A DNA stretch of 33,131 nucleotides from Beijerinckiaceae bacterium (GTDB lineage: Bacteria > Pseudomonadota > Alphaproteobacteria > Rhizobiales > Beijerinckiaceae). Both the position numbers and the translations under genes were made by a program. Location: assembly GCA_947476075.1 (NCBI GenBank), contig CANJPM010000014.1, forward strand, positions 1 through 33,131, read 5' to 3'. Below are positions 1,570-21,143 of the stretch, one piece after another (within the stretch, counting starts at the first letter, position 1; every line of letters begins with the position of its first letter). The notes beneath the pieces were generated by a model. The model ran no database searches and was not told where the DNA came from. It saw only the letters and a program-made list of their open reading frames with translations.

Positions 1570-3507
1570 ATGAAGCCGTCTGAGTCAGTCGACTTCAGCC
1601 AACAGCAGTTTCTTGATGTGCTCAGTCGCGAGGAAGCGTTGAAGCGCTTTGAGGTCGCGTTGTTTCCACGCGAGCAGGCCGTGGTCGAATGCGGGCTTTT
1701 GGCTGCGCTTGATTTGCCGCTGGCGCGGGACGTTATCGCGCCTGTGGACGCGCCGCCGTTTGATCGTTCGAACGTGGATGGGTTTGCGGTTCGGGCTGCG
1801 GATCTTGCGCGCGCCGGGCAAGGAAGCCCCGTGATCCTGCGATTAAATGACGAGAGCGTGCGCTGTGGCGTCACGCCTAAGATTTCGCTCGCGACCGGCA
1901 CTGCGACGCCGATTGCAACAGGCGCGCCCTTGCCGCGCGGCGCCGATGCTGTGGTGATGGTGGAGCACACGCACCCTTGCGGCGATTCCGAGATCGAGGT
2001 GACGCGCAGCGTCACGCCCGGACAGGCGGTTTCTTTCGCAGGATCGGATATTGCGCGAGGCGAGACATTGTTGCGCGCAGGAATTGTGATCGGGTCGCGC
2101 GAGATTGGGATGCTGGCTGCGTGTGGCATTGGCGCAGTGTCGGTCGTGCGTAAACCGCGCGTGAAAATCCTGTCCACCGGTGATGAATTGCGCTCTGCGG
2201 GACAGGCGCTTTCGTCCGCCGCAATCTATGACGCCAATGGCCCGATCATAAGTGCGGCGGTCACTGAATGCGGTGGCGAATCTATGTTTCTTGGCGCGAT
2301 CGGAGATGACGAGAGATTGCTTGGCGCTGCGATAAAATCAGCGTTTGACGATTGCGACATGCTGATCCTTTCAGGTGGTACGTCGAAGGGCGCGGGCGAT
2401 CTCACTTACAAGCTGATTGCCGATCTGGGCGCGCCGGGCATTGTGGCTCATGGAATTGCATTGAAGCCCGGCAAGCCGTTGTGCCTTGCTGTGTGCGCCG
2501 GCAAGCCGGTCGTTATTTTGCCTGGCTTTCCAACGTCCGCCATGTTTACGTTTCACGACATGATCGCGCCTGTGTTGCGACGCATGGCGGGTCTGCCGCA
2601 GCGGGCGGAGTCGCGCGTGGCTGCCCGCGTTCCAGTGCGCATCGCGTCTGAGCTCGGGCGACGCGAATATGTTATGACCTCGCTTGTTGAAGGGCGTGAG
2701 GGGTTGACAGCCTATCCTTCAGGAAAGGGCTCTGGCGCGGTCACATCTTTTGCTCAAGCCGACGGTTTCGTCGTCATTGACGCATTGAGCGATCATTTGC
2801 CGGCGGATTCAGAAGTTGAGGTAAACCTTTTCACCGCGCACGCACGCGCGCCCGATTTGGTGGCTATTGGCAGCCATTGCGTGGGGCTTGATGCAGCGAC
2901 TGCGCCGCTTGCGCGCGCGGGCTTGCTCGTGCGCTCGATCTCTGTTGGCAGTCTCGGCGGGTTGGCGTCGGCCAAGCGCGGAGAGTGCGACATTGCGCCA
3001 ATGCACTTGCTCGACGAGAAGACCGGTGAATGGAATACACCCTATCTAAGCGCGGGTCTTGAACTTGTTCCTGGATGGCGACGCATGCAGGGTATTGTTT
3101 ATCGATCAGGTGATGAACGCTTTGAGGGAAGAGATGCCGCCGACGCAATCGCTGCGGCGTTGAGCGATTCTGGTTGCATGATGGTGAACCGCAACATGGG
3201 CGCAGGCACCCGTGTTCTTATTGATCAGGCGCTAAAGGGTGCGCGGCCGGAGGGTTATTTCAACCAGCCGCGTTCCCATAACGCGGTTGCGGCTGCTGTC
3301 GCGCAGGGGCGCGCGGATTGGGGTGTTGCGATTAAGCCTGTGGCGCAAGCCTATGGGCTTGGGTTCATTGCGCTGTCGCAGGAGCATTATGATTTTGCAC
3401 TCGTCTCAGAGCGCAAGAACCGGTCTGGCGTGCAGGCGTTTCTGAGCTCGCTCGCAAGCAATGAGACGCGCGAGGCGCTGCGCGCCATCGGCTTTGAGCC
3501 GGCGTGA
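1570..3507 (+). CDS. MoeA fused to a PBP-like substrate-binding domain
   Basis: A 645-residue two-part protein. Residues 1-420 are a complete MoeA domain with FDRSNVDGFAV (64-74), TGAPLPRGADAVV (117-129), GSDIARGE (158-165), LSTGDEL (201-207), LSGGTSKGAGD (267-277), ALKPGKP (297-303) and LPGFPTSA (317-324). Residues 430-645 match the periplasmic-binding-protein-like domain (PF12727) seen in archaeal and some bacterial MoeA proteins, with MHLLDEKTGEWNTPYL (478-493), VNRNMGAGTRVL (539-550) and GRADWGVAIKP (580-590). There is no signal peptide, so the binding domain is cytoplasmic. It may sense or recruit molybdate or tungstate, but that is inference. A GGGGA sequence precedes the ATG. Its TGA stop (3505-3507) directly abuts the stop of convergent mobA, with no room for a terminator. 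Together with its upstream neighbour it supplies molybdenum-cofactor functions to the FDH cluster. Confidence 0.9.
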   Translation: MKPSESVDFSQQQFLDVLSREEALKRFEVALFPREQAVVECGLLAALDLPLARDVIAPVDAPPFDRSNVDGFAVRAADLARAGQGSPVILRLNDESVRCGVTPKISLATGTATPIATGAPLPRGADAVVMVEHTHPCGDSEIEVTRSVTPGQAVSFAGSDIARGETLLRAGIVIGSREIGMLAACGIGAVSVVRKPRVKILSTGDELRSAGQALSSAAIYDANGPIISAAVTECGGESMFLGAIGDDERLLGAAIKSAFDDCDMLILSGGTSKGAGDLTYKLIADLGAPGIVAHGIALKPGKPLCLAVCAGKPVVILPGFPTSAMFTFHDMIAPVLRRMAGLPQRAESRVAARVPVRIASELGRREYVMTSLVEGREGLTAYPSGKGSGAVTSFAQADGFVVIDALSDHLPADSEVEVNLFTAHARAPDLVAIGSHCVGLDAATAPLARAGLLVRSISVGSLGGLASAKRGECDIAPMHLLDEKTGEWNTPYLSAGLELVPGWRRMQGIVYRSGDERFEGRDAADAIAAALSDSGCMMVNRNMGAGTRVLIDQALKGARPEGYFNQPRSHNAVAAAVAQGRADWGVAIKPVAQAYGLGFIALSQEHYDFALVSERKNRSGVQAFLSSLASNETREALRAIGFEPA

Positions 3508-8183: not shown

Positions 8184-8741
8184 GTGAAACTGCCGCGCAC
8201 CATTCGGCTCGATCCGTCCGATACGTTCATCTTTGAGCGTGCCGCGGAGCCCGGCGAATGGGCGGTTTCTGGCGGTTTTCTTTTCGCCGATTGCGAGCCT
8301 GATACGATGGAGGCCAAGGAGCGCCATGCGTTTCGCTCCGGTTTTCTGGGCGTCGATACGTTGGGCTTCTCCACGCTGGCGGTGATCGTTGAGGCCAGCG
8401 AAGAGGATCGCGCGAGAGCGATTAGGGCTCTGGCGCAGCGGTTTCTGGCGTTGGGTGCGCCTGATCAGTCGGCGGCGGAGAAGGCTGCGCAGGATGAGGT
8501 CGCGTTTGCGGTCTCGCTTTGCGACCATCCCGAGGGAACGTTGCTGGCTGTGGAGCGGCGCATGGAAGACGGCGCGTTGCGAGAGCGTTTCCGCACATTC
8601 AAGGCGCGAGAGCGGATTGCCGGCGCCGACAAAATGCACGCGTCGTCGCGCGCGTTCACCTTTCTGGAAATTGAAGGCGAAGAGGATGCGCCTGAAGAGC
8701 GCGTCGATCTGGTTTCGCTGATGGGGAAAAAAGAGCGATGA
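8184..8741 (+). CDS. DUF6505 family protein, FDH accessory operon
   Basis: A 185-residue protein without signal peptide, membrane span or cysteine cluster. The N-terminal pattern LPRTIRLDPSDTFIFERAA and GFLGVDTLGFSTL match the family I know as DUF6505, which occurs in alphaproteobacterial FDH loci. Function is unknown. The middle is rich in Glu, Arg and Ala, consistent with helices, and the tail (EIEGEEDAPEERVDL) is acidic. GTG 8184 is preferred to GTG 8169 because GGAG (8171-8174) sits nine bases upstream and the shorter protein begins directly with the conserved block. The stop overlaps the next ATG as ATGA, so expression of the two products is coupled, which suggests they act together in fixed ratio. 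Confidence 0.75.
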   Translation: MKLPRTIRLDPSDTFIFERAAEPGEWAVSGGFLFADCEPDTMEAKERHAFRSGFLGVDTLGFSTLAVIVEASEEDRARAIRALAQRFLALGAPDQSAAEKAAQDEVAFAVSLCDHPEGTLLAVERRMEDGALRERFRTFKARERIAGADKMHASSRAFTFLEIEGEEDAPEERVDLVSLMGKKER

Positions 8742-9751
8742 GAGAATTCTGGGTCTCGTCCGGCCATCAATTGTCCCGTCGCAACGAGCGCGGCGAGCTT
8801 GTAGCTACGCCCGAGTTGCTGATTGCGTGGCTGGCGAGGCCGGAGCTGGCGCCGCCCCCGGAGGCTTGCGCGGCGGAGCGCGGATTGCATCTCGCTATGC
8901 TGGATGATCCGTTGCGCGTTGTGGCGCCTCTTGAGCTGAGTGCGGTTCTTGACGCTGACGCGCGCGAGAACTGGGCTTTTTTCCTGAAGTTTCGCGATCT
9001 GCTGGTTGAAACAGGCTCGATTGAAGCTGCATATATAAAGCTTGCAAACGCGCAGCGGGTTGAGCTGCCGCCGCTGTTTCTGGACCAGATGGCGCATCTG
9101 ATTTTACGCAATGCGCTGGATGGCTGCGACGATCCGTTTACGCTGCGCGCAGGCGAATTGTTCTTCCGTCAGCAAAAGGCGAACGTGCACGAAGGCGTTC
9201 TGCTGCTTGCCGATTCTGAACTTGTCGAGGAGCGTGAAAAGTCCAAAGCCGCGATGATGCATGTGGCGCCGCTCTCGGCGATGATGGAAGATGATCTCGA
9301 CGTTATGGACGCTGAGAACGCCTGGACTTATTGGTCGCGCTCCGACGCCAATTCAATGGCGATGAATTTCGGCGGCGATCCGCGCGCCAGAGCAGGGCTT
9401 GCACGCGCGATTGAGGCCTGGATCAAACATCTGACCGGTTTTGCCGTTCATGCTGAGGCGATTGCGAAACTTGAGGACAAGGACTGGCGTTGGTTCATCG
9501 GGCTTGATTCAGAGGGCACGCGCATCGGGAACACGCTCTGGCGTGGAGATAGTTTGCGCGAGGAGGATCTTGATCGCGTGGTCGCGATCATGCGCGTGAG
9601 CTTCGATGACGACCGGCGCGTGCAGCAGCGTTTGAAGGAGCGCGTGCGTGGCAAACCTTTCTATCTGTTTCTTGGCGCCAATGTTGATCGCATCGTGCGT
9701 ATGAAGCCGCAGAATCTCGTCAGCGGATTGCCTTTGGAGAGCGTGCAATGA
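8738..9751 (+). CDS. DUF6352 family protein, FDH accessory operon
   Basis: A 337-residue cytoplasmic protein whose opening (REFWVSSGHQL, then LLIAWLARPELAPPPEACAAE) fits the family DUF6352, always seen near FDH genes as far as I know. It appears mostly alpha-helical, with a charged, hydrophilic composition, a few scattered cysteines only and no recognisable nucleotide-binding motif. The segment AENAWTYWSRSDANSMAMNFGG near residues 200-220 is a distinctive aromatic stretch followed by a helical C-terminal domain. The start overlaps the DUF6505 stop by 4 bp, and its own stop overlaps the DUF3305 start by 4 bp. Coupling of four genes in a row points to a multi-subunit assembly. Its biochemical role is not known to me. 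Confidence 0.75.
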   Translation: MREFWVSSGHQLSRRNERGELVATPELLIAWLARPELAPPPEACAAERGLHLAMLDDPLRVVAPLELSAVLDADARENWAFFLKFRDLLVETGSIEAAYIKLANAQRVELPPLFLDQMAHLILRNALDGCDDPFTLRAGELFFRQQKANVHEGVLLLADSELVEEREKSKAAMMHVAPLSAMMEDDLDVMDAENAWTYWSRSDANSMAMNFGGDPRARAGLARAIEAWIKHLTGFAVHAEAIAKLEDKDWRWFIGLDSEGTRIGNTLWRGDSLREEDLDRVVAIMRVSFDDDRRVQQRLKERVRGKPFYLFLGANVDRIVRMKPQNLVSGLPLESVQ

Positions 9752-10254
9752 ATGCAATGCGCGAAGTCGGAATCGTCGTGCGTCGCGCAAAGGTTGACAA
9801 TCCCTGGATCGATCATGTCTGGAGCCCGGAGGCGGTTCTGGCTGAGGCGCCCGCGACGCTGCCCGGCGCCTTGTTGTCGCGCGAGGCCGAGGCCGAATTG
9901 TTCTACGCCGGCGCCGCCATTATCGAGCTCTACAAGTCGGAAACCGGCAATTACCGGGACAACCTCATCGACGGCGCCCCGTTTCTCTGGGTCGCGTTGC
10001 GGGAGACGCCAGAGGGGCTTGTGGAGCTGGCCGCCGTTACCGCCGATCCCACCGAGGGCGAATCGCTGTTTGAGAGCGGGTTGCTAGTCGGCAAGGCGGC
10101 GATGCCGGCGGAGATTGCGTCCTGGATCGCCGCCTATGTCGACGAATTCCATGTCGAGCGCGTTTTCCTGAAGAGAGAGAGAGACAAGTCCGGCCCAGAT
10201 CCACGCAAGACTCCCGGGGTCCGCAAGGGGCGGAAATCCGGAGACGGCGCATGA
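9748..10254 (+). CDS. DUF3305 family protein
   Basis: A 168-residue protein beginning with EVGIVVRRAKVDNPWIDHVWSPEAVL, the characteristic DUF3305 block, followed by AELFYAGAAIIELYKSETGNYRDNL and a C-terminal basic tail (KRERDKSGPDPRKTPG, about 143-158). DUF3305 proteins are consistently next to DUF3306, TorD-type chaperones and Tat-dependent FDH genes, including in Shewanella, and are thought to aid FDH maturation; no activity has been assigned that I know of. There is no export signal. It overlaps DUF6352 upstream and DUF3306 downstream by 4 bp each. The purine-rich run near 10170-10185 encodes the KRERDK segment and also provides Shine-Dalgarno-like sequence within the gene. Confidence 0.85.
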   Translation: MNAMREVGIVVRRAKVDNPWIDHVWSPEAVLAEAPATLPGALLSREAEAELFYAGAAIIELYKSETGNYRDNLIDGAPFLWVALRETPEGLVELAAVTADPTEGESLFESGLLVGKAAMPAEIASWIAAYVDEFHVERVFLKRERDKSGPDPRKTPGVRKGRKSGDGA

Positions 10255-10934
10255 GCGATAATGATTCGGATGCCGGATTTCTCGGTCGCTGGGCCAGACG
10301 CAAAGCGGAAGCACGCACGCAAGAGAAAACAGAAGCGCCTGCGCCCCAGAGCGAATCTGTGTCGCCACAAAAGGCTGACGATGAGGAAGAGCCGTTTGAT
10401 CTGGCCAGCCTTCCAAGCCTCGACGACATTACCGGAGAGACCGATGTTACAGCGTTCCTGCGCCGTGAAGTGCCAGACTGGTTGCGGAATGCAGCGCTAA
10501 AGCGCGCCTGGGCCGCAGACCCTGGCATTCGTGATTACGTGAATCCGGCGATGGAATACGCTTTTAACTGGAACGTGCCAGGCGGCGTGCCCGGTTCCGG
10601 TGAGCTTGAAGCTGGGTATGACGCCGCCAGCCAGGTCGCGAAAATGTTCTCTTCTCCGCTTAAGGCCAAGGACGAAAAAGTAGAGGAGGGCTCTGATACT
10701 TTAGTGGGGCGAGTTTCTACGGAGGGGACTGCCGCAGGGGCGCTGGACGGTGAACAGACCGAGGAGCCAGCATCCGATCCATTGCGGATCAGCACTAAAG
10801 CAGAAGCAGATAAAGAGGAAGAAAATCAGTCACCTGGGGAAGGTGGCGATAAGGACGCAAAAGTTGCGGAGCTTTCGTCGCCTCAGCCTCCATTGGTTGT
10901 ACGGCGCCGGCATGGCGGGGCAACGCCGTCTTAG
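10251..10934 (+). CDS. DUF3306 family protein
   Basis: A 227-residue protein. The N-terminal FLGRWARRK (10-18), the central segment from VTAFLRREVPDWLRNAALKR through NPAMEYAFNW (66-107), and the terminal RRRHGG (about residue 217 onward) are the three conserved parts of DUF3306. Between them are long acidic, Glu/Ser-rich, probably disordered stretches, especially residues 140-210. Codon use in that tail (nt 10680-10870) is less GC-rich than in neighbouring genes, as expected for a weakly constrained linker. The family accompanies DUF3305 in FDH clusters and its function is unknown. It ends the operon that began with the ligase-like gene: a 140-bp gap containing two back-to-back inverted repeats separates it from the HTH-TorD gene. 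Confidence 0.85.
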   Translation: MSDNDSDAGFLGRWARRKAEARTQEKTEAPAPQSESVSPQKADDEEEPFDLASLPSLDDITGETDVTAFLRREVPDWLRNAALKRAWAADPGIRDYVNPAMEYAFNWNVPGGVPGSGELEAGYDAASQVAKMFSSPLKAKDEKVEEGSDTLVGRVSTEGTAAGALDGEQTEEPASDPLRISTKAEADKEEENQSPGEGGDKDAKVAELSSPQPPLVVRRRHGGATPS

Positions 10935-10940
10935 CGCCGG

Positions 10941-10976
10941 GACAAAGGCTGATTTGTCACATAGGAACATCCTATG
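10941..10976. promoter_or_regulatory. Two adjacent inverted repeats upstream of the TorD/fdh operon
   Basis: Directly after the DUF3306 stop lie GACAAA-N6-TTTGTC (10941-10958) and, touching it, CATAGGA-N3-TCCTATG (10960-10976), both perfect. A third perfect palindrome, TTTACGTAAA, sits at 11021-11030, followed by an A-run. The first could be a weak hairpin ending the DUF operon, but it lacks a T-tract. The second has the size and spacing of an operator. They sit 100 to 130 bp before the HTH-TorD start, so they are candidate binding sites for that regulator or for another FDH regulator. I see no convincing sigma-70 or sigma-54 promoter to anchor them. Confidence 0.4.
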
Positions 10977-11074
10977 CTGTCGTTGAAGTGGACGCGGCTT
11001 CGTGGCACAGGTAATCAGCGTTTACGTAAAAAAAACGTCTGGAAGCGCGATCCGGGCTTTAGTCTGAGGGGCTA

Positions 11075-11863
11075 ATGAGGGACATCGGGCTTGAAAAGGC
11101 CATTACCGCTGCTGGCGGCGTCGCGTCTTTGGCGCGGGGGCTTGGGATTGCGCAGCCGTCAGTGTCCGGCTGGTCGCGGGTTCCTGCCGAGCGCGTTTTG
11201 GCTGTCGAAGCTCTCACGAAGGTTCCCCGGGCGCTGCTTCGCGCCGATTTGTTCGACGGAGGCGTTATGGCTGACGGCTCCAGTTCCGAGATCGACGAAA
11301 TAGACAGCCTGCGGGCTGCCGAATGGGGCTTGCTGGCTGTGCTGATGGGCCGTGCGCCCAATGGAGATTTGCTGGCGCGTATCGCGGGGCTTACGGGTGA
11401 CGCGACCGCCATGGGGCTTGCACACATCGCCCTTGGCCAGGCTGCCGCCAGTGCTGACGAGACGCTTGTCGGGCGCGAATATTTCGATCTGTTCGTAGGC
11501 GTCGGGCGCGGTGAGTTTCTGCCCTACGGATCGTATTACCTGACCGGCTTCCTGCATGAGCGTCCTCTGGCGCGCTTGCGGGCAGATCTTGAGCGGCTGG
11601 GCGTGGAGCGCGACGGCGCCCGCAGCGAACCGGAAGATCATATCGCCATCGTTTGCGAGATCATGTCGAACTTCGCCTCCGGTGTGTTCGAGGTTGATTT
11701 CGACACCCAGCGCGCCTTCTTCGAGGCCCATGTGAAGCCATGGGCGAGCCGCTTCTTCGCAGATCTTGAAATCTCGCAGAGGGCTAATTTTTATCGTGCG
11801 GTCGGACAAGTCGGCCGCGTGTTTCTGGAACTGGAAGCTCAAGCCTTCACGCTGCCTGCGTGA
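11075..11863 (+). CDS. YdaS/Cro-type HTH fused to TorD-family chaperone
   Basis: A 262-residue protein with two domains. Residues 6-62 are a Cro/YdaS-like helix-turn-helix: AITAAGGVASLARGLGIAQP, then SVSGWSRVPAERVLAVEAL. Residues 75-262 are an all-helical TorD/DmsD-type chaperone, with the family signature EPEDHIAIVCEIM at 185-197. Such chaperones bind the Tat signal of a molybdoenzyme and hold the apo-protein until cofactor is inserted; here the client is almost certainly FdhA, encoded 260 bp downstream. GAGGGG precedes ATG 11075. An internal ATG at 11267 has GGAGG four bases upstream and would give a 198-residue plain TorD, the normal family length, so two products are possible. A fused HTH suggests autoregulation tied to the amount of free client. 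That link is inference; the domains are visible. Confidence 0.85.
   Translation: MRDIGLEKAITAAGGVASLARGLGIAQPSVSGWSRVPAERVLAVEALTKVPRALLRADLFDGGVMADGSSSEIDEIDSLRAAEWGLLAVLMGRAPNGDLLARIAGLTGDATAMGLAHIALGQAAASADETLVGREYFDLFVGVGRGEFLPYGSYYLTGFLHERPLARLRADLERLGVERDGARSEPEDHIAIVCEIMSNFASGVFEVDFDTQRAFFEAHVKPWASRFFADLEISQRANFYRAVGQVGRVFLELEAQAFTLPA
11258..11269 (+). promoter_or_regulatory. Candidate internal ribosome binding site and start for TorD alone
   Basis: GGAGG at 11258-11262 is followed four bases later by an in-frame ATG (11267) exactly in the linker between the HTH and TorD domains. Initiation there would give MADGSSSEIDEIDS as the N-terminus and 198 residues in all. Gly-Gly codons in the linker could produce GGAGG by chance, so this is a candidate only. 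Confidence 0.45.
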
Positions 11864-11901
11864 TCGCCAGATTTTATCATGAGACCATGAGAGGGAATGT
11901 C

Positions 11902-12108
11902 ATGAGCAAGGACACGGATCGGAAGGCCGTCGACAGACGCAGCTTTTTCCGCGGCCTGAGCGGCGCCGCTGTCGTCGCCGGCGCCGCTGCGGCCACTGGG
12001 GCGTCAACAGCGCCTGCGCAAGCGACCGAGTCGAAAGATGAGCGCACCAAGGCGCGCTATAAAGAGACCGAACACGTGAAGACCTTCTACCGCACCAACA
12101 AATACTGA
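11902..12108 (+). CDS. Formate dehydrogenase region Tat-target small protein
   Basis: A 68-residue protein of the FDH-region Tat-target family (TIGR02811). The twin-arginine motif DRRSFFRG is at residues 11-18, followed by an Ala/Gly/Val-rich hydrophobic stretch and APAQA, a likely signal peptidase site. The mature part is only about 30 residues and highly charged (TESKDERTKARYKETEHVK), ending RTNKY. It precedes fdhA by 10 bp and follows TorD by 38 bp. The start is ATG 11902, preceded by GAGAGGGA; an in-frame upstream start at 11860 overlaps the torD stop and is less likely. The family is always next to periplasmic FDH genes. It may be a small FDH subunit or an export aid, and its role is unproven. 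Confidence 0.85.
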   Translation: MSKDTDRKAVDRRSFFRGLSGAAVVAGAAAATGASTAPAQATESKDERTKARYKETEHVKTFYRTNKY

Positions 12109-12118
12109 GGGGGCGAGC

Positions 12119-15100
12119 ATGCTCATCAAGAGAAGAGATTCCTCGGCTCGCGCCGCACGCAGCGATTCGCGTTTGCAGGCGATGTCATCCGGGTTGGCGT
12201 CCGGTACGCTGGACCGCCGTTCGTTCCTGCGTCGTTCTGGCCTTGCGGCCGGCGGCGTGGCGGCTTTGGGCGTGGGTACGCTTGGCAGCGTAAAGAAAGC
12301 CGAAGCGATTGCGATGCTCGACCACACCAAGAAGGTCGAGCTCAAAAAGAACATGTGCACCCATTGTTCGGTTGGCTGCACGGTCATCGGCGAAGTTCAG
12401 AACGGCGTTTGGGTCGGGCAGGAGCCTGCCTGGGACAGCCCGATCAATCGTGGCACCCATTGCGCCAAGGGCGCAGCCTCGCGCGAGCTGGTGTTCGGCG
12501 ATCGTCGTCTCAAATATCCGCTGAAGCTCGTCAATGGTCAGTGGACCCGCGTCTCTTGGGATGTCGCGATCAACGAGATCGGTGACAAGATGACGGCGAT
12601 CCGCGAGAAATCCGGCGCCGATTCCGTCTACATGCTGGGCTCCGCCAAGTTCACCAACGAAGGCGCGTATCTGTTCCGCAAGTTCTCCGCCTTCTGGGGC
12701 ACGAACTCGGTCGATCATCAGGCGCGCATCTGCCATTCGACCACGGTGGCCGGCGTCGCCAACACCTGGGGCTATGGCGCGCAGACCAATTCCTACAACG
12801 ACATTCGCAACGCCAAGACGATCATCTTCATGGGATCGAATGCGGCCGAAGCCCATCCGGTGTCGTTGCAGCACATCCTCACCGGCAAGGAAACCAACCG
12901 CGCCAACGTGATTGTGTTCGATCCGCGCTTTACGCGCACAGCCGCTCACGCCACTGAATATGTGCGTTTCCGTGGCGGTACTGACATTGCGGTGATCTGG
13001 GGCCTGATGCACCACATCTTCGCCAATGGCTGGGAAGACAAGGAATTCATCCGCCAGCGCGTGGACGGCATGGATGCGATCCGCGCTGAAGTCGCCAAGT
13101 GGACGCCGGCTGAAGTCGAGCGCGTCACGGGGATTCCGGGCGAGCAGCTGAAGAAGGTCGCCGAGACCTTCGCAAAACAGCGTCCCTCGACGTTCATCTG
13201 GTGCATGGGCGGCACGCAGCACACGGTCGGCACGGCCAATGTTCGCGCCTATTGCAACCTGCTGCTGGCCACCGGCAACGTCGGCTCCAACGGCACGGGC
13301 GCCAACATCTTCCGCGGTCACACCAACGTGCAGGGCGCGACGGATCTTGGCCTCGATATCGGTACGCTGCCGTTGTATTACGGGTTGGTTGAAGGCGCCT
13401 GGCGCCATTGGGCTCGCGTTTGGGACGTGCCCTACGATTATTTCGTCGACCGTTTCGACGAAGTGCCCGCCAAGGCCGGTCGCCCTGCGCGCACGAAGAA
13501 ACAGAACATGGAAACCCCCGGCATCCCCTCGACCCGCTGGTTCGACGCCGTGTCATTCAAGGCCGACGATGTCGACCAGAAGGACAGCGTCAAGGCGATG
13601 GTGGTGTTCGGCCATGGCGGCAACACGATTCCCCGTATGCCCGATTCCGTGAAGGCGCTTGAGGATCTCGATCTGCTCGTGGTCGCCGATCCCCATCCAA
13701 CCACGTTCTCCGCGCTCTCAGGCCGCAAGAACGGCACGTATCTGCTGCCGATCTGCACCTCCTTTGAGGTTGATGGCTCGCGCACAGCGTCTAACCGTTC
13801 CATTCAATGGGGCGAGAAATTCGTCGAGCCTATCTTTGAATCCAAGGACGATTACGAGGCGATCTACCTGCTCTCGAAGAAGCTCGGCTTCGCCGACGCC
13901 ATGTTCAAGAACATCAAGGTCGTGAACAACAAGCCTGTCCCGGAAGACTTGTTGCGCGAAATCAACAAGGGCGGTTTCTCGACCGGTTATTCCGGCCAGT
14001 CGCCTGAGCGCATCAAGATGCACATGGCCAATCAGGGCAAGTTTGACATCGTGACCTTGCGGTCGGCGGCGAACGAGCCGGGCCTTGGCGGCGATTATTA
14101 CGGTCTGCCGTGGCCTTGCTGGGGCAAGCCGGAGATCAAGCATCCGGGCACGCATATTCTCTACAACACGAACCTTCACGTGAAGGACGGTGGCGGCACC
14201 TTCCGCGCCCGCTTCGGCGTCGTGCGTGAAGAGAAGGCGGCTGACGGAACCGTGACTCAGGTGAGCATGCTCGCCGACGGCTCCTACAGCAAGGGTTCCG
14301 AGTTGACCGACGGTTATCCGGAATTCACGCTGGGCGTGCTGAAGAAGCTTGGTTGGGACAAGGACCTCACAGAGGCCGAATCCAACCAGATCAACGCTCA
14401 GGGCGGCGCAAATGCTGATGGCGTCGGCTGGGCGGTGGACCTGTCAGGCGGCATTATTCGCGTCTGCCTCGAGCATGGCGTATTGCCCTATGGCAACGCC
14501 AAGGCGCGCGCCGTGGCCTATAATCTGCCCGATCCGGTGCCGGTGCATCGCGAGCCGATTTATAGCCCGCGCACGGATCTCGTCGCGCAATATCCGACGC
14601 GTCCCGACGGTCGCCAGTTCCGCATGGCCAACATCGGCGCAACGGTTCAAAAAGCTGCGCTGGACAAGGGCGTGGCCAAGCAATTCCCGATCATCCTCAC
14701 CTCCGGCCGTCTGGTCGAATACGAGGGCGGCGGCGAAGAAACCCGCTCGAACAAATGGCTTGCCGAGCTTCAGCAGGACATGTTCGTCGAGATCAACCCG
14801 GCTGACGCAGCCGCGCGCGGCGTGCGGGACGGCGGTTGGGTCTGGGTCTCCGGCCCCGAGGCGAATTCGAAGGCGCGCGTGAAGGCGCTCGTCACCGAGC
14901 GCGTTGGCAAGGGCGTGGCGTTCATGCCGTTCCACTTCGCCGGCTGGTTCCAGGGCGTCGATCAACGCGGAAACTATCCCAAGGGAGCTGATCCGATCGT
15001 GCTCGGCGAGAGCGTGAACACGGTCACAACCTACGGATACGATCCTGTCACCGGCATGCACGAAGGTAAAGTGACCCTTTGCCAGATCAGCGCAGCGTAA
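12119..15100 (+). CDS. fdhA: Formate dehydrogenase, catalytic alpha subunit (Mo-bisMGD, Tat-exported)
   Basis: A 993-residue member of the DMSO reductase family that oxidises formate to CO2 in the periplasm. The long N-terminus carries the twin-arginine motif DRRSFLRR (32-39) and a hydrophobic segment ending near residue 64. The [4Fe-4S] ligands are Cys80, Cys83, Cys87 and Cys115. The molybdenum ligand is Cys205 in ARICHSTT (codon TGC at 12731), with the catalytic His206 next to it, so this is a cysteine enzyme, not a selenocysteine one. IFMGSNAAEAHP, the G-rich MGGTQHTVGT region and the C-terminal molydopterin-dinucleotide domain (about 840-990) are all present, so the protein is full length. 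GGGGGCGAGC precedes the ATG. It is followed by fdhB 10 bp later. Maturation should need MobA, MoeA, the TorD protein and an FdhD encoded elsewhere. Confidence 0.97.
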   Translation: MLIKRRDSSARAARSDSRLQAMSSGLASGTLDRRSFLRRSGLAAGGVAALGVGTLGSVKKAEAIAMLDHTKKVELKKNMCTHCSVGCTVIGEVQNGVWVGQEPAWDSPINRGTHCAKGAASRELVFGDRRLKYPLKLVNGQWTRVSWDVAINEIGDKMTAIREKSGADSVYMLGSAKFTNEGAYLFRKFSAFWGTNSVDHQARICHSTTVAGVANTWGYGAQTNSYNDIRNAKTIIFMGSNAAEAHPVSLQHILTGKETNRANVIVFDPRFTRTAAHATEYVRFRGGTDIAVIWGLMHHIFANGWEDKEFIRQRVDGMDAIRAEVAKWTPAEVERVTGIPGEQLKKVAETFAKQRPSTFIWCMGGTQHTVGTANVRAYCNLLLATGNVGSNGTGANIFRGHTNVQGATDLGLDIGTLPLYYGLVEGAWRHWARVWDVPYDYFVDRFDEVPAKAGRPARTKKQNMETPGIPSTRWFDAVSFKADDVDQKDSVKAMVVFGHGGNTIPRMPDSVKALEDLDLLVVADPHPTTFSALSGRKNGTYLLPICTSFEVDGSRTASNRSIQWGEKFVEPIFESKDDYEAIYLLSKKLGFADAMFKNIKVVNNKPVPEDLLREINKGGFSTGYSGQSPERIKMHMANQGKFDIVTLRSAANEPGLGGDYYGLPWPCWGKPEIKHPGTHILYNTNLHVKDGGGTFRARFGVVREEKAADGTVTQVSMLADGSYSKGSELTDGYPEFTLGVLKKLGWDKDLTEAESNQINAQGGANADGVGWAVDLSGGIIRVCLEHGVLPYGNAKARAVAYNLPDPVPVHREPIYSPRTDLVAQYPTRPDGRQFRMANIGATVQKAALDKGVAKQFPIILTSGRLVEYEGGGEETRSNKWLAELQQDMFVEINPADAAARGVRDGGWVWVSGPEANSKARVKALVTERVGKGVAFMPFHFAGWFQGVDQRGNYPKGADPIVLGESVNTVTTYGYDPVTGMHEGKVTLCQISAA

Positions 15101-15110
15101 GGAGAGCAAC

Positions 15111-15707
15111 ATGGCTCGTGTAAAATTTCTCTGCGACGCTGACCGCTGCATTGAGTGCAACGCCTGCGTCACCGCCTGCAAGAACGAACATGACGTGCCG
15201 TGGGGCATCAACCGCCGCCGCGTCGTGACCATCAACGACGGCCTGCCGGGTGAACGCTCGGTTTCTATGGCCTGCATGCATTGCACCGACGCGCCCTGCG
15301 CGGCGGTGTGCCCGGTGAATTGCTTCTATACGACGGTTGACGCCGTGGTTCTTCACTCGAAGGATCTGTGCATTGGCTGCGGCTATTGCTTCTACGCGTG
15401 TCCCTTTGGAGCGCCGCAATATCCGCGCGTCGGCAATTTTGGTTCGCGTGGCAAGATGGATAAGTGCACTTATTGCGCCGGCGGTCCGGAAGCTGACCTC
15501 ACCCAGGCGGAATACGTCAAGTACGGCGCCAATCGTCTGGCGGAAGGCAAGCTGCCGATCTGCGCCGAGATGTGCTCGACAAAGGCTCTGCTTGCCGGCG
15601 ACGGCGCCATCATCGCGGAAATCTACAAGGAGCGCGTGACGCGTCGAGGCTATGGCTCCGGAGCGTGGGGCTGGAAGACGGCCTACAAGGACGGCGTCGC
15701 ATTGTGA
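15111..15707 (+). CDS. fdhB: Formate dehydrogenase, iron-sulfur beta subunit
   Basis: A 198-residue four-cluster ferredoxin-type subunit that passes electrons from FdhA to the cytochrome b subunit. Cysteine sets are Cys13/16/19/23, Cys55/58/63/67, Cys87/90/93/97 and Cys119/122/151/155, the standard arrangement for FDH and related enzymes. It has no signal peptide and presumably travels to the periplasm bound to FdhA. Unlike E. coli FdnH (about 290 residues) it has no C-terminal transmembrane helix, ending in GAWGWKTAYKDGVAL, so it must dock on FdhC without its own anchor. AAGGAGAG lies before the ATG. It is between fdhA (10 bp) and fdhC (65 bp). Confidence 0.95.
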   Translation: MARVKFLCDADRCIECNACVTACKNEHDVPWGINRRRVVTINDGLPGERSVSMACMHCTDAPCAAVCPVNCFYTTVDAVVLHSKDLCIGCGYCFYACPFGAPQYPRVGNFGSRGKMDKCTYCAGGPEADLTQAEYVKYGANRLAEGKLPICAEMCSTKALLAGDGAIIAEIYKERVTRRGYGSGAWGWKTAYKDGVAL

Positions 15708-15772: not shown

Positions 15773-16780
15773 ATGAACACGGCCATTCAATTCGTCAGAG
15801 CCGGCGCCTTTGCGCTGCTTCTGATCTTCGTCGCGGCTGCGCAACCCGCAGCCGCCCAGCAGGCGCCAAACCCCACCGCACAATCGGTGAAGGAAGAGCA
15901 ATTGCTGAAAGCGCTTCAGCCGGGGGCCAGCGTCTCCGGACGCATCACCATTCCGGACTCACATTCTGCGACGCTGATCCAGCCCGAAGGGCAGGACTGG
16001 CGCAAGTTTCATCAGGGCGTCCTGCCGGTGATTGGCGGCGTCGCCATTCTGGGCATCATTGCGCTGCTCGCGCTGTTTTATGCCACGCGCGGCCGCATCA
16101 AGGTTGATGCGGGCCTTTCGGGCCGCACTGTCACCCGCTTTGGCGGTTTTGATCGCTTCGTGCATTGGGTGACGGCGAGCACGTTCATCGTTCTGGCGGT
16201 GTCGGGACTCAATTTGTCGTTCGGCAAGACGGTTGTTCTGCCGCTGTTTGGCGACGCCGCGTTCGCCACGCTGACGGGTTACGGCAAGCTGGCTCATAAT
16301 TACCTCTCGTTCCCGTTCATGGTCGGCGTGGCGTTGATGTTCATCATCTGGGCCAAGGACAATATCCCCAACAAGCTTGATCTGGATTGGATCAAGGCTG
16401 GCGGCGGTCTGTTCGTGAAGGGCGCGCATCCTCCGGCCAAGCGTTTCAACGCGGGCCAGAAGGGCATTTTCTGGATCGTCGCATTTGGCGGTCTGATCAT
16501 GTCCGTGTCCGGCTGGCATCTGCTGTTCCCCTTCGAGGGCGGCTCCACCGTCGGCGACCAGCAATTCTGGGTGAACGTCCACGCGGTGCTGGCGATGATC
16601 TTCATCGCCGTCATGCTGGCGCACGCCTATATCGGCTCGGTTGGCATGGAAGGCGCGTTCGACGCCATGGGCTCGGGCGAAGTCGACGAGAATTGGGCGA
16701 AGGAGCATCACTCCCTTTGGCTCGAAGAGCGCAAGAAGCTTGCCGGCAATGCGCCCAAGGGCTCCGTTCCGGCCGAGTAG
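15773..16780 (+). CDS. fdhC: Formate dehydrogenase, cytochrome b gamma subunit
   Basis: A 335-residue membrane cytochrome b556-type subunit that anchors the enzyme and delivers electrons to quinone. It begins with a cleavable signal-like segment (residues 5-28, ending AAAQPAAAQQ), then a periplasmic stretch and five predicted spans at about 83-103, 130-147, 173-193, 231-253 and 266-288. Candidate haem ligands are His131, His175, His249, His270 and His284. The longer N-terminus with signal peptide and extra span separates it from E. coli FdnI (about 217 residues) and matches the Wolinella/Shewanella/Fdh3 type. ATG 15773 is chosen because upstream codons in the same frame read through fdhB out of frame. 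It ends the fdh operon and is followed by a strong terminator. Confidence 0.93.
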   Translation: MNTAIQFVRAGAFALLLIFVAAAQPAAAQQAPNPTAQSVKEEQLLKALQPGASVSGRITIPDSHSATLIQPEGQDWRKFHQGVLPVIGGVAILGIIALLALFYATRGRIKVDAGLSGRTVTRFGGFDRFVHWVTASTFIVLAVSGLNLSFGKTVVLPLFGDAAFATLTGYGKLAHNYLSFPFMVGVALMFIIWAKDNIPNKLDLDWIKAGGGLFVKGAHPPAKRFNAGQKGIFWIVAFGGLIMSVSGWHLLFPFEGGSTVGDQQFWVNVHAVLAMIFIAVMLAHAYIGSVGMEGAFDAMGSGEVDENWAKEHHSLWLEERKKLAGNAPKGSVPAE

Positions 16781-19120: not shown

Positions 19121-20431
19121 TCAGGGTTTATTGGCCATTGTAGCCTGCGACAGAAAGTCAATCAGGGCGGCGCGATCAGCGGGATCGGTCACGCGCTGCT
19201 CGGGCATTTTCGTGCCGGGCGTGTAGGATTGCGGGCCAATCTCGAACAGTCGTGAGATCGTTTCCGCGCTCCATACCAGATCCAGCTTTCTAAAGGCGTC
19301 CGAGTAATCATAGCCTGGCGCCGTTCCGGCCTTGCGCCCAAACACGCCATGCAGGGTAGGGCCTGCGCGGTTGTCGTCGCCCGGCTTCAGCGTGTGGCAG
19401 ATGGCGCAGGCGCGAAAGACCTCTGCGCCGCGCACACCGGCATAGGCGGACAGCTCATCACCAGGGCCTTGCGCGACGACGGCGCCGATGTGCTCGCCGG
19501 TTCGCGCATCCCAGCGCCGCACCAGCTTGTCGCCGCCACCTGTCAGCAAAGTGCGCCCGTCGGGCGAATAGCTGAGCGACCACACCGGCAGGCCGGGGCC
19601 GTTGAGAGTGAAGCGGACTTTTGCGCCCGGCTCGCCGACATTGATGATAGCGACCGAACCGCGCGGGCTTGCCGCGGCGAGGTCGCGTCCGTTGGGCGAG
19701 GCGGCGAGCGCGATGATGGGCGCCTCTGCGGCTTGCGTGCGCGACAAGATTACGCCGCTCTCGTTGAGGATAAGAACCATGCCGTCAGCGCCGCCGGCGG
19801 CGATGCGGCCATTATCGAGGACAGCCAAAGCGTTCTGCGGCGCAGGGGTTTCTACGATTTTCGGCGGCTGCGTCTTGTCAGTCGGCCAGATCCGCAAGGT
19901 CGCGTCATAGCTGGCGGTGACAAGGCTTGGCCCGAGCCAGACGAGCGCATTCACCGCGCCGCGATGGCCAGCGAAGTCTTCGACCGCAATTCCGGTTTCC
20001 AAAGAGAACGTGCGCGCGAGATTGTCCCACCCTGCAGTGGAATAACTGGCGCCGTCGCTTGAAACGGCAAGGCCTGCGATCGGCGCCTCATGGGCCTTGT
20101 CGACCCGCAACGGGCGCGCGCCGTCTGATCCCCAAAGCGCGACGCGACCATCTTCGCCTGCGGTCAGAAAGCGCCCGCTCGGCAGCGCCGCAACCGCGTT
20201 CACCGCGCCCTCATGGACGCGCAACACGCGCAGCGCTTTTCCCGCCTGCAAGTCCCAGACGATGGCCGATTGATCGAAGCCGCCGCTGATGGCTGTCCTG
20301 CCGTCAGGCGCTATGGCCAGCGTCCGCACAGGACCGCCGTGTCCGCGCAGCCCGTCCTGGGCGGAGGCAGGGGCTGCGAGCAGGGACAGGGCGAAGAGTG
20401 TGGAGGCGAGGATGGTTGAGGCTATACGCAT
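19121..20431 (-). CDS. Periplasmic WD40 repeat protein with C-terminal cytochrome c domain
   Basis: A 436-residue exported protein. A Sec signal peptide occupies residues 1-24 (ending APASAQ). Residues 27-325 form about seven WD40-like blades, with repeats such as GHGGPVRTLAIAPDGR, IVWDLQAG, HRGAVNALVW and VRRWDARTG. The C-terminal 110 residues are a class I cytochrome c with haem motif CAICH (342-346) and axial methionine Met409 in GTKMP. A beta-propeller joined to a monohaem cytochrome suggests periplasmic electron transfer with a docking surface; partner and substrate are unknown. Start ATG 20431 is set by the signal peptide; the open frame continues further upstream only as an antisense shadow of tusA and DUF971. 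It is divergent from tusA across about 98 bp, and the small peptide gene follows. Confidence 0.9.
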   Translation of the reverse strand: MRIASTILASTLFALSLLAAPASAQDGLRGHGGPVRTLAIAPDGRTAISGGFDQSAIVWDLQAGKALRVLRVHEGAVNAVAALPSGRFLTAGEDGRVALWGSDGARPLRVDKAHEAPIAGLAVSSDGASYSTAGWDNLARTFSLETGIAVEDFAGHRGAVNALVWLGPSLVTASYDATLRIWPTDKTQPPKIVETPAPQNALAVLDNGRIAAGGADGMVLILNESGVILSRTQAAEAPIIALAASPNGRDLAAASPRGSVAIINVGEPGAKVRFTLNGPGLPVWSLSYSPDGRTLLTGGGDKLVRRWDARTGEHIGAVVAQGPGDELSAYAGVRGAEVFRACAICHTLKPGDDNRAGPTLHGVFGRKAGTAPGYDYSDAFRKLDLVWSAETISRLFEIGPQSYTPGTKMPEQRVTDPADRAALIDFLSQATMANKP

Positions 20432-20529
20432 GAGCACAGAATAGGGCAGACTGGCGGTCGCGCCCAGCTTTGTCATGGGGAAAAACTGGCAGAGTTGACG
20501 CAGGGCTCCAGAGCGGTCATCTGGCGGAT

Positions 20530-20772
20530 ATGTCTTCATCGCCCGCGCCGCTTCGCCTTGATCTGACCGGACTGAAATGCCCGCTGCCCGTGCTGCGCAC
20601 GCGCAGGGCGCTTCGGGCGATGTCGCCGGGAGCTGTGCTGGAGGTGATCTGCACGGACCCGATGTCGGCGATTGATATTCCCAATATGGTGCGTGAGAGC
20701 GGCGATATTCTTCGTGAAAAGCGCGCGCAGGACGTTTCCCTGTTTTTCTGCATTGAAAAGGCCGCACCATGA
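20530..20772 (+). CDS. tusA: TusA/SirA-family sulfurtransferase
   Basis: An 80-residue sulfur carrier with the TusA core LDLTGLKCPLPVLRTRRAL. Cys17 in KCPLP is the persulfide-bearing residue. TusA proteins accept sulfur from IscS-type desulfurases and pass it to tRNA thiolation, Moco synthesis or FdhD-linked sulfuration of FDH. In this locus delivery to the molybdenum cofactor is attractive but unproven. The start ATG 20530 is chosen because upstream codons add no family sequence. The stop overlaps the DUF971 start as ATGA. Confidence 0.92.
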   Translation: MSSSPAPLRLDLTGLKCPLPVLRTRRALRAMSPGAVLEVICTDPMSAIDIPNMVRESGDILREKRAQDVSLFFCIEKAAP

Positions 20773-21143
20773 ACGCGCAAAGCTGGCCCACGGAAATCCG
20801 CCTCGGCAAGGAACGCCGCACGCTTATCGTCGTTTTTGACGATGGCGCCCGGTTTGAATTGTCGGCCGAGATGCTGCGGGTGATGAGCCCGTCTGCGGAA
20901 GTGCAGGGGCATTCTGAATCCGAGCGCAAAACCGTCGGCGGCAAGCGCAACGTCTCGATCATCAAAGTCGACGCGGTGGGCAATTACGCCGTGCGGATCG
21001 GCTTCGACGATATGCACGACAGCGGTATCTATTCATGGACGCTGCTGCGCGAGCTTGGGCAAAACGCCGAAGCAAAATTCGCCAGCTACCTCACCGACCT
21101 TGCCGCCAAGGGGCTGGACCGCGACAAGCAAGGCGCAAAATAA
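20769..21143 (+). CDS. DUF971 family protein
   Basis: A 124-residue protein of the DUF971 / gamma-butyrobetaine-hydroxylase N-terminal-like family. TEIRLGKERRTLIVVFDDGARFELSAEMLRV is the usual opening, and later AVRIGFDDMHDSGIYSWTLLRELG contains the conserved DxHxSGIYxW core, which here reads DMHDSGIYSW. In other bacteria it is often encoded beside Mrp/ApbC or other Fe-S factors, so it may work in cluster or sulfur handling; no activity is assigned. It is translationally coupled to tusA. It converges with phoX across 73 bp. Confidence 0.92.
   Translation: MNAQSWPTEIRLGKERRTLIVVFDDGARFELSAEMLRVMSPSAEVQGHSESERKTVGGKRNVSIIKVDAVGNYAVRIGFDDMHDSGIYSWTLLRELGQNAEAKFASYLTDLAAKGLDRDKQGAK

Follow-up and report, generated by a model that had tools for sequence, protein, structure and literature searches.

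Background

Chaperones of the TorD family bind the twin-arginine leader of their client and the apo-enzyme, and help to insert the cofactor. Helix-turn-helix (HTH) domains of the YdaS/Cro type usually occur in phages or in toxin-antitoxin modules. BirA, the biotin ligase and repressor, carries an HTH on a post-translational maturation factor, and represses until apo-substrate occupies it. In type III secretion and flagellar systems, the free or engaged state of chaperones reports the status of export or assembly to transcription. To our knowledge, the way in which synthesis of Tat-exported Mo/W enzymes is matched to maturation capacity is poorly explained in the field.

The window analysed here is a stretch of 33,131 nucleotides from Beijerinckiaceae bacterium (assembly GCA_947476075.1, contig CANJPM010000014.1, positions 1 to 33,131). 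It contains a gene in which a YdaS/Cro-type HTH is joined to a TorD-type chaperone, next to formate dehydrogenase genes. This helper protein very probably also sets the amount of formate dehydrogenase, since it has a built-in HTH and a matching DNA sequence is found before its own gene across many bacteria. The parts come from known families. The HTH-TorD combination is undescribed in the open-licence literature searched, where no description of an HTH on a TorD-type chaperone was found; the initial annotation of this DNA likewise knew of no characterised example. The main text of a review of molybdoenzyme maturation contains no occurrence of 'DNA-binding' or of 'regulator' (PMC10609526). No HTH-TorD fusion appears in the available portions of PMC13197769, PMC10609526 and PMC12628762.

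The formate dehydrogenase locus

The genes lie on the + strand in the order DUF6352 - DUF3305 - DUF3306 - HTH-TorD - TAT-target peptide - fdhA - fdhB - fdhC - mobB - moeA. The features are as follows.

8738..9751, + strand: DUF6352 gene (PF19879, 9e-53)
9748..10254, + strand: DUF3305 gene, 5' neighbour (PF11749, 1.4e-32)
10251..10934, + strand: DUF3306 gene, 5' neighbour (PF11748, 3e-15)
11075..11863, + strand: HTH-TorD fusion gene, 262 aa, ATG start, intact single ORF
11860..12108, + strand: formate-dehydrogenase-region TAT-target peptide (TIGR02811 above cut-off), likely ATG at 11902
12119..15100, + strand: fdhA, molybdopterin formate dehydrogenase alpha subunit (PF00384, PF01568, PF04879)
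15111..15707, + strand: fdhB, 4Fe-4S subunit (Fer4 domains)
15773..16780, + strand: fdhC, cytochrome b561-type subunit (PF01292, 7e-23)

The initial annotation placed a Tat-target peptide and fdhABC directly 3' of the fusion gene, and both TIGR02811 and the domain matches confirm this. FdhA has an RRSFLRRS twin-arginine leader, recognised by eye; its top NCBIfam match is Fdh-alpha, under the equivalog cut-off of that model. Among loci with the HTH of this protein and sufficient flank, fdhA is found 3' of the fusion gene in 103 of 103 and DUF3305 is found 5' of it in 99 of 100.

Other genes of the window can be recorded here. Positions 1570-3507 encode MoeA and a periplasmic-binding-protein-like domain (PF12727) in one protein. 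Its neighbours are another MoeA-like gene, at 381-1559, and a MobA-like domain. MoeA occurs a third time 3' of fdhC, together with MobB. On the - strand, 19121-20983 is an open frame with WD40 repeats and a cytochrome c domain at its end.

Domains and structure of HTH-TorD

The in-frame union of a YdaS/Cro HTH with TorD holds up: the gene is one intact frame, both profiles score above curated cut-offs, and the HTH half and the TorD half each match when scanned alone. The protein is divided as follows.

11090..11251, + strand: YdaS/Cro-type HTH domain, aa 6-59 (PF15943, 3e-11, 43 bits against a cut-off of 30)
11153..11167, + strand: putative recognition helix, aa 27-31 (QPSVS), the third HTH helix in the model
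11258..11293, + strand: linker, about aa 62-73, of low confidence (pLDDT below 50 at 62-70) and, in the alignment, of variable length
11297..11860, + strand: TorD chaperone domain, aa 75-262 (PF02613)

The PF02613 (TorD/NarJ family) match covers residues 110-228 (9e-29, 101 bits against a cut-off of 22). An AlphaFold2 model, built on 31 aligned sequences, has a mean pLDDT of 84.5 and a pTM of 0.67. In this model the HTH part has six helices, and residues 1-60 are at pLDDT 88-94 per ten-residue block; the HTH helices fall at residues 4-13, 16-23, 27-31 and 38-48. The TorD domain has a low-confidence part at 143-161. Foldseek places the HTH half with Xfaso 1 Cro (3bd1; TMt 0.78-0.80, rmsd 1.2-1.8), a Cro-like HTH fold, so the DNA-binding fold is present in the predicted structure. 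For the TorD half the best targets are DmsD (3efp/3cw0) and YcdY (9m26), at TMt 0.64-0.76, with the all-helical TorD/DmsD fold.

There is a GGAGG-4 nt-ATG ahead of an internal Met65 (window 11258-11269). This Shine-Dalgarno sequence makes a TorD-only product possible in the window. An internal start at Met65 is ruled out as a general mechanism, as it is found in three of 16 inspected fused genes: that of the window (L001) and those of L002 and L003. The latter two are the closest relatives of the window.

Distribution and selection of the fusion

Full-length matches to the fusion are found in 13 of 101 genomes in a scan of relatives, the window's own genome included; in one more genome of that scan (G045) the fusion is present but split across two contigs. 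Within the order, 38 of 397 genomes have full-length matches, and these belong to seven families. Within the class, the figure is 10 of 385, with further families among them. A sample of the phylum (398 genomes) gives ten full-length matches, all in the window's own order; among the matches listed for this sample, none outside the class is full-length. The named hosts are chiefly Bradyrhizobium, and also Afipia, Microvirga, Rhodoblastus, Rhodovarius and two genomes labelled Rhizobium sp. Q54. The window's own genus is a mixture of fused species and TorD-only species. Since full-length matches recur across genomes, the fusion is no accident of assembly or stop loss.

A survey of homologues had been proposed to see if the HTH and TorD co-occur. 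Many homologues keep the HTH, and it is under purifying selection: dN/dS is 0.099 for the HTH against 0.126 for the TorD core (36 disjoint pairs). Other matches to the HTH in genomes G000, G001, G003, G013 and G095 do not reach E 0.004. The plasmid-borne fused gene is annotated by NCBI as 'molecular chaperone TorD family protein'. This names the TorD part alone, and the HTH is therefore invisible in the product name.

A candidate operator upstream of the fusion gene

The region 10935-11074 had been suggested as the place where the protein might act on DNA. It does hold a palindrome, the proposed operator, which tracks the HTH across genomes.

10960..10976, + strand: proposed operator CATAGGAACATCCTATG, a 17-bp palindrome with perfect 7-bp arms and a 3-nt centre

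The proposed operator is located 3' of the DUF3306 gene and 5' of the fusion gene, and has the consensus CATAGG-N5-CCTATG. It is the only site in the window at one mismatch or fewer; 0.14 are expected, and 14 of 100 shuffles have one.

The motif YATAGS-N5-SCTATR (12 scored positions) was written by reading the upstream DNA of a first set of 110 loci, two of which were dropped for want of upstream DNA. A score of 11-12 of 12 is reached by 69 of 76 fused upstreams in this set (the motif was derived from those very loci, and two pairs among the 76 are identical genomes fetched twice) versus 0 of 32 TorD-only upstreams. Dinucleotide-shuffled upstreams score at least 11 in 9 of 2140 cases. Thirty loci with a QP[ST] helix were fetched once the motif was fixed; the score is 11-12 in 28 of them and 10 in the other two, three of the 30 (L230, L231, L238) appearing to repeat earlier genomes. 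The later TorD-only loci (n=20) score at most 9. Further loci with a QP/HP-S helix score at least 11 in eight cases out of eight, as does the one plasmid-borne Bradyrhizobium fused gene (1/1).

When old and new loci are combined and identical upstreams are removed, the palindrome is present in 100 of 107 upstreams with a QPS-type HTH and in 0 of 68 TorD upstreams without the HTH; the loci in these counts are related to one another. The seven QPS upstreams which fall short are L037, with a score of 9, and L038, L040, L070, L078, L205 and L254, each with a score of 10. It has to be considered whether the whole arrangement is an effect of chance or annotation, that is, an unrelated HTH read through into TorD beside an accidental palindrome. 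The internal Shine-Dalgarno sequence and Met65 of the window would allow for this, as they permit a TorD-only start. An explanation of this kind is contradicted by how widely the fusion is conserved (seven families within the order, others elsewhere in the class), and the palindrome count of 100/107 versus 0/68 also stands against it; we regard an artefact as practically negligible.

The information content of the site was taken from 46 loci that are not of the Bradyrhizobium type. It amounts to 1.85-2.0 bits at the positions of the ATAG/CTAT half-sites, values which are inflated somewhat by the choice of the best window. Base 1 of the palindrome carries 1.5 bits and its partner at the far end 0.2 bits, and the spacer and flanks are mostly below 0.35 bits. 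The centres of the half-sites are 11 bp apart, which fits putative binding by a dimer. In five loci of one clade within the Bradyrhizobium family f36 (L232-L235 and L237) there is a second palindrome about TGGAATAATTCCA (CTAGAACAGTTCTAG in L237). It is found roughly 10-15 nt 3' of the operator.

Comparisons between genomes show the two domains, their conservation and, at the level of sequence, the association of helix and palindrome. The initial annotation had suggested that the chaperone doubles as a DNA-binding protein. The fold, the conservation and the palindrome association support this suggestion; the contact with DNA is itself a prediction. Read from sequence, the HTH-TorD fusion holds, and the support for it is greater than first stated.

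Covariation of the recognition helix and the site

Fused genes with other recognition helices have other sites. The helix QPAIS is found in three species of genus g327, and QPAVS is found in L263, which is from another family. These loci are without the CATAG consensus and carry GATAAGGTCTCATTATC, GATAACCGCTCATTATC or CATAAGCACTTGTTATG; the pattern [CG]ATAA-N7-TTAT[CG] is present in four of four QPA[VI]S loci, from two families. The QPA-class and QPS-class sites have the same 17-bp length, and the ATA core is kept. Base 5 of the half-site is G in the QPS class and A in the QPA class; in g327, base 1 is also changed, from C to G. The putative recognition helix has Ser at residue 29 in the QPS class and Ala in the QPA class. 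A VWHW-type HTH, found in L207, L208 and L209 (two families), is accompanied by ACAAA-N4-TTTGT in three of three loci. The QPA-class and VWHW-class patterns were searched for in the other helix classes and found in none. As each pattern was derived from the class it represents, the counts within that class are descriptive, and it is the absence elsewhere which is informative.

Two single genomes provide leads only. In Rhodovarius (L100) the palindrome GTGCA-N7-TGCAC is present twice. L265 (G325) has an XRE-type HTH (PF13560/PF01381) on TorD, with TGCATCG-N4-CGATGCA (7-bp arms) shortly 5' of the start; this XRE-TorD is apparently an independent fusion.

Losses and exceptions

L014-L030, a well-supported clade in the window's genus, have neither HTH nor palindrome. 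The same is true of L102, L104 and L284, from a Bradyrhizobium TorD branch. In these three loci DUF3306 and TorD are in one frame (PF11748 4e-18 and PF02613 9e-31 in L284), which leaves no intergenic region of the usual kind. Both states are found in genome G609: the fused copy (L233) has the palindrome, and the copy without HTH (L284, at a second FDH copy) does not. L092 has a decayed helix (PVVPSSPSNW) and a decayed site (8 of 12).

There are two exceptions, L077 and L090, in which the HTH is partly altered and the site is kept. They could be taken to mean that the palindrome at the fdh promoter belongs to another regulator and that the HTH is a relic. Two genomes also have the site at molybdate- or tungstate-type uptake genes, as might be expected of a metal-responsive regulator. 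However, the palindrome follows the presence of the HTH and changes with its recognition helix, the HTH is under purifying selection, and TorD-only relatives with the same operon are without the site. A separate owner of the palindrome is very unlikely indeed.

Two quick trees were made from loci thinned by hand, leaving out most Bradyrhizobium and near-duplicate loci. The first has 111 rows, 16 loci having been lost for lack of an anchor motif; the second has 107 rows and is short of 15 loci, including that of the window. In the first tree the QPS fusions form a single clade with weak support (76). The VWHW, XRE and L100 types fall in another part of the tree, an arrangement suggestive of repeated fusion. 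A test on independent pairs in the second tree has two pairs on well-supported branches and seven on all branches, and is underpowered.

Position of the site relative to the promoter

10983..11011, + strand: tentative sigma70-like promoter TTGAAG-N17-CACAGG with a weak -10, chosen by eye against g1 and Bradyrhizobium relatives

The tentative promoter starts 6 nt past the proposed operator; a position weight matrix (PWM) scan ranks other, weak pairs of the window above it. The scan used a sigma70 PWM with E. coli weights and is noisy. Of 96 QPS sites, it puts the centre of 61, for the most part from Bradyrhizobium, between -55 and -45, and that of 22 between -25 and -5. Five promoters were printed at more than 12 bits. 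The site is near -17 in four of these (L084, L206, L258 and L259), a placement which the scan favours because a CTAT(A) half-site looks like a -10 box, and near -60 in L204. In the QPA genus (g327) the site is near -14, and in L263 it is near -35.

A position of -55 to -45 also suits activators. HTH-TorD could be bound 5' of the -35 and recruit RNA polymerase, with either the free or the substrate-loaded form being active. This would account for the 61 of 96 QPS sites, but the distance from the operator to the -35-like box, where the site is upstream, varies from 4 to 9 nt by eye, and in other lineages the site is centred near -17, -14 or -35, over the core promoter. Activation is rather unlikely. 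Two observations favour repression: in several lineages the site overlies the predicted core promoter, and elsewhere its distance of 4-9 nt is variable. A repressor of the fdh operon is more likely than an activator. With respect to repression of the BirA kind, the palindrome association is seen, and the promoter positions fit either sign of control.

Other possible targets

There is no genome-wide excess of the palindrome: 12 fused genomes contain 24 forward matches, versus 30 for the reversed control. Besides the tup and mod sites, those extra sites which can be placed are in coding sequence or beside unrelated-looking genes, and L187 is without a called gene; these were rejected as targets.

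In G003 and G013, tandem palindromes are found about 100 nt upstream of a tupA-like gene, for which the best NCBIfam match is TupA, below the cut-off. These tandem palindromes (L181:1172-1203 in G013 and L180:1663-1694 in G003) consist of two overlapping 17-bp sites, 15 bp apart. The modA and modB genes match above NCBIfam cut-offs. In G003 a palindrome is present 58 nt 5' of modB. The mod site of G013 was ruled out as an intergenic site; it is inside the modA frame (838-1689 of L178), about 40-57 nt past the likely ATG. The modB site of G003 and the tup sites are suggestive only as targets.

TorD-only genomes have a tupA match in 14 of 15 searched, with no site within 500 nt upstream (284 nt in L164). 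In 11 other fused genomes the 500 nt around the modB match contain no site, and neither do those around tupA in the genomes which gave a tupA match; this proximity search would miss sites before modA, as happened in G013. For tupA itself, there is no match in G020, and there are only fragments in G007.

These sites bear on the reading that the HTH is a DNA tether, holding the chaperone at the fdh locus to catch nascent FdhA with little effect on transcription. The operator does adjoin the cluster which encodes the chaperone's client. However, predicted core promoters overlap or adjoin the sites, and the palindromes before the tupA-like gene in two genomes precede a gene whose product is no known TorD client. 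A tether is very unlikely.

Proposed mechanism

We consider it probable that HTH-TorD, taking the explanation as a whole, is a bifunctional protein: a maturation factor and a transcriptional autoregulator of the fdh operon, most likely repressing it. The YdaS/Cro HTH would bind, as a dimer, to the 17-bp palindrome just 5' of its own gene, a step strongly supported by comparison. The bound protein may then repress torD-TAT-fdhABC, as suggested by the location of the palindrome, which overlies the predicted core promoter of several lineages and is at a varying distance from the promoter in the others. The TorD domain is expected to bind the Tat leader of FdhA and the apo-enzyme, like other TorD proteins. 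Engagement of the TorD domain by unassembled FdhA would cause the protein to leave the DNA; by analogy, apo-FdhA may release it as apo-BCCP releases BirA. The operon would be on while enzyme awaits maturation and off when the chaperone is idle. In two related species, stalled FdhA without metal would in addition call for metal uptake via the tupA-like gene.

A wider reading concerns the class. Alphaproteobacteria may have fused several kinds of HTH (YdaS with different helices, and XRE) to the FDH TorD more than once, giving a direct sensor of unassembled Tat-exported enzyme that acts as repressor of the fdh operon and, in certain species, of tungstate/molybdate uptake. We put this at slightly under an even chance.

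If the proposal is true, HTH-TorD is a physical link from chaperone occupancy to transcription, and closes a quality-control loop: transcription is set by the chaperone itself, according to the maturation state which it reads. The palindrome would give a predictive handle on fdh operons, and the protein would be a scaffold on which to build sensors for folding or for the loading of cofactor. The proposal is directly testable, as there is a defined candidate operator, a pairing of residue and base, relatives without either, and cultured hosts (Bradyrhizobium).

Comparison with known systems

HTH-TorD shares its family, its fold and its operon setting with a Tat-exported molybdo- or tungsto-enzyme with the chaperones TorD, DmsD and NarJ (PF02613). 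It differs from them in bearing an HTH. The N-terminal half is of the same family and fold as the YdaS and P22-Cro phage repressor HTH domains (PF15943, PF14549; Xfaso 1 Cro, 3bd1). It also resembles them in having a putative palindromic site near its own start, which goes with the HTH; unlike them, it is joined to a chaperone and is located in a metabolic operon. Chaperones of type III secretion and flagellar systems work via partner regulators, whereas HTH-TorD has an HTH of its own. BirA is like HTH-TorD in that DNA-binding and maturation domains are present in one chain, the maturation role of HTH-TorD being assigned by family. The domains of the two proteins are unrelated, and the regulatory loop, which is experimental in BirA, is inferred for HTH-TorD.
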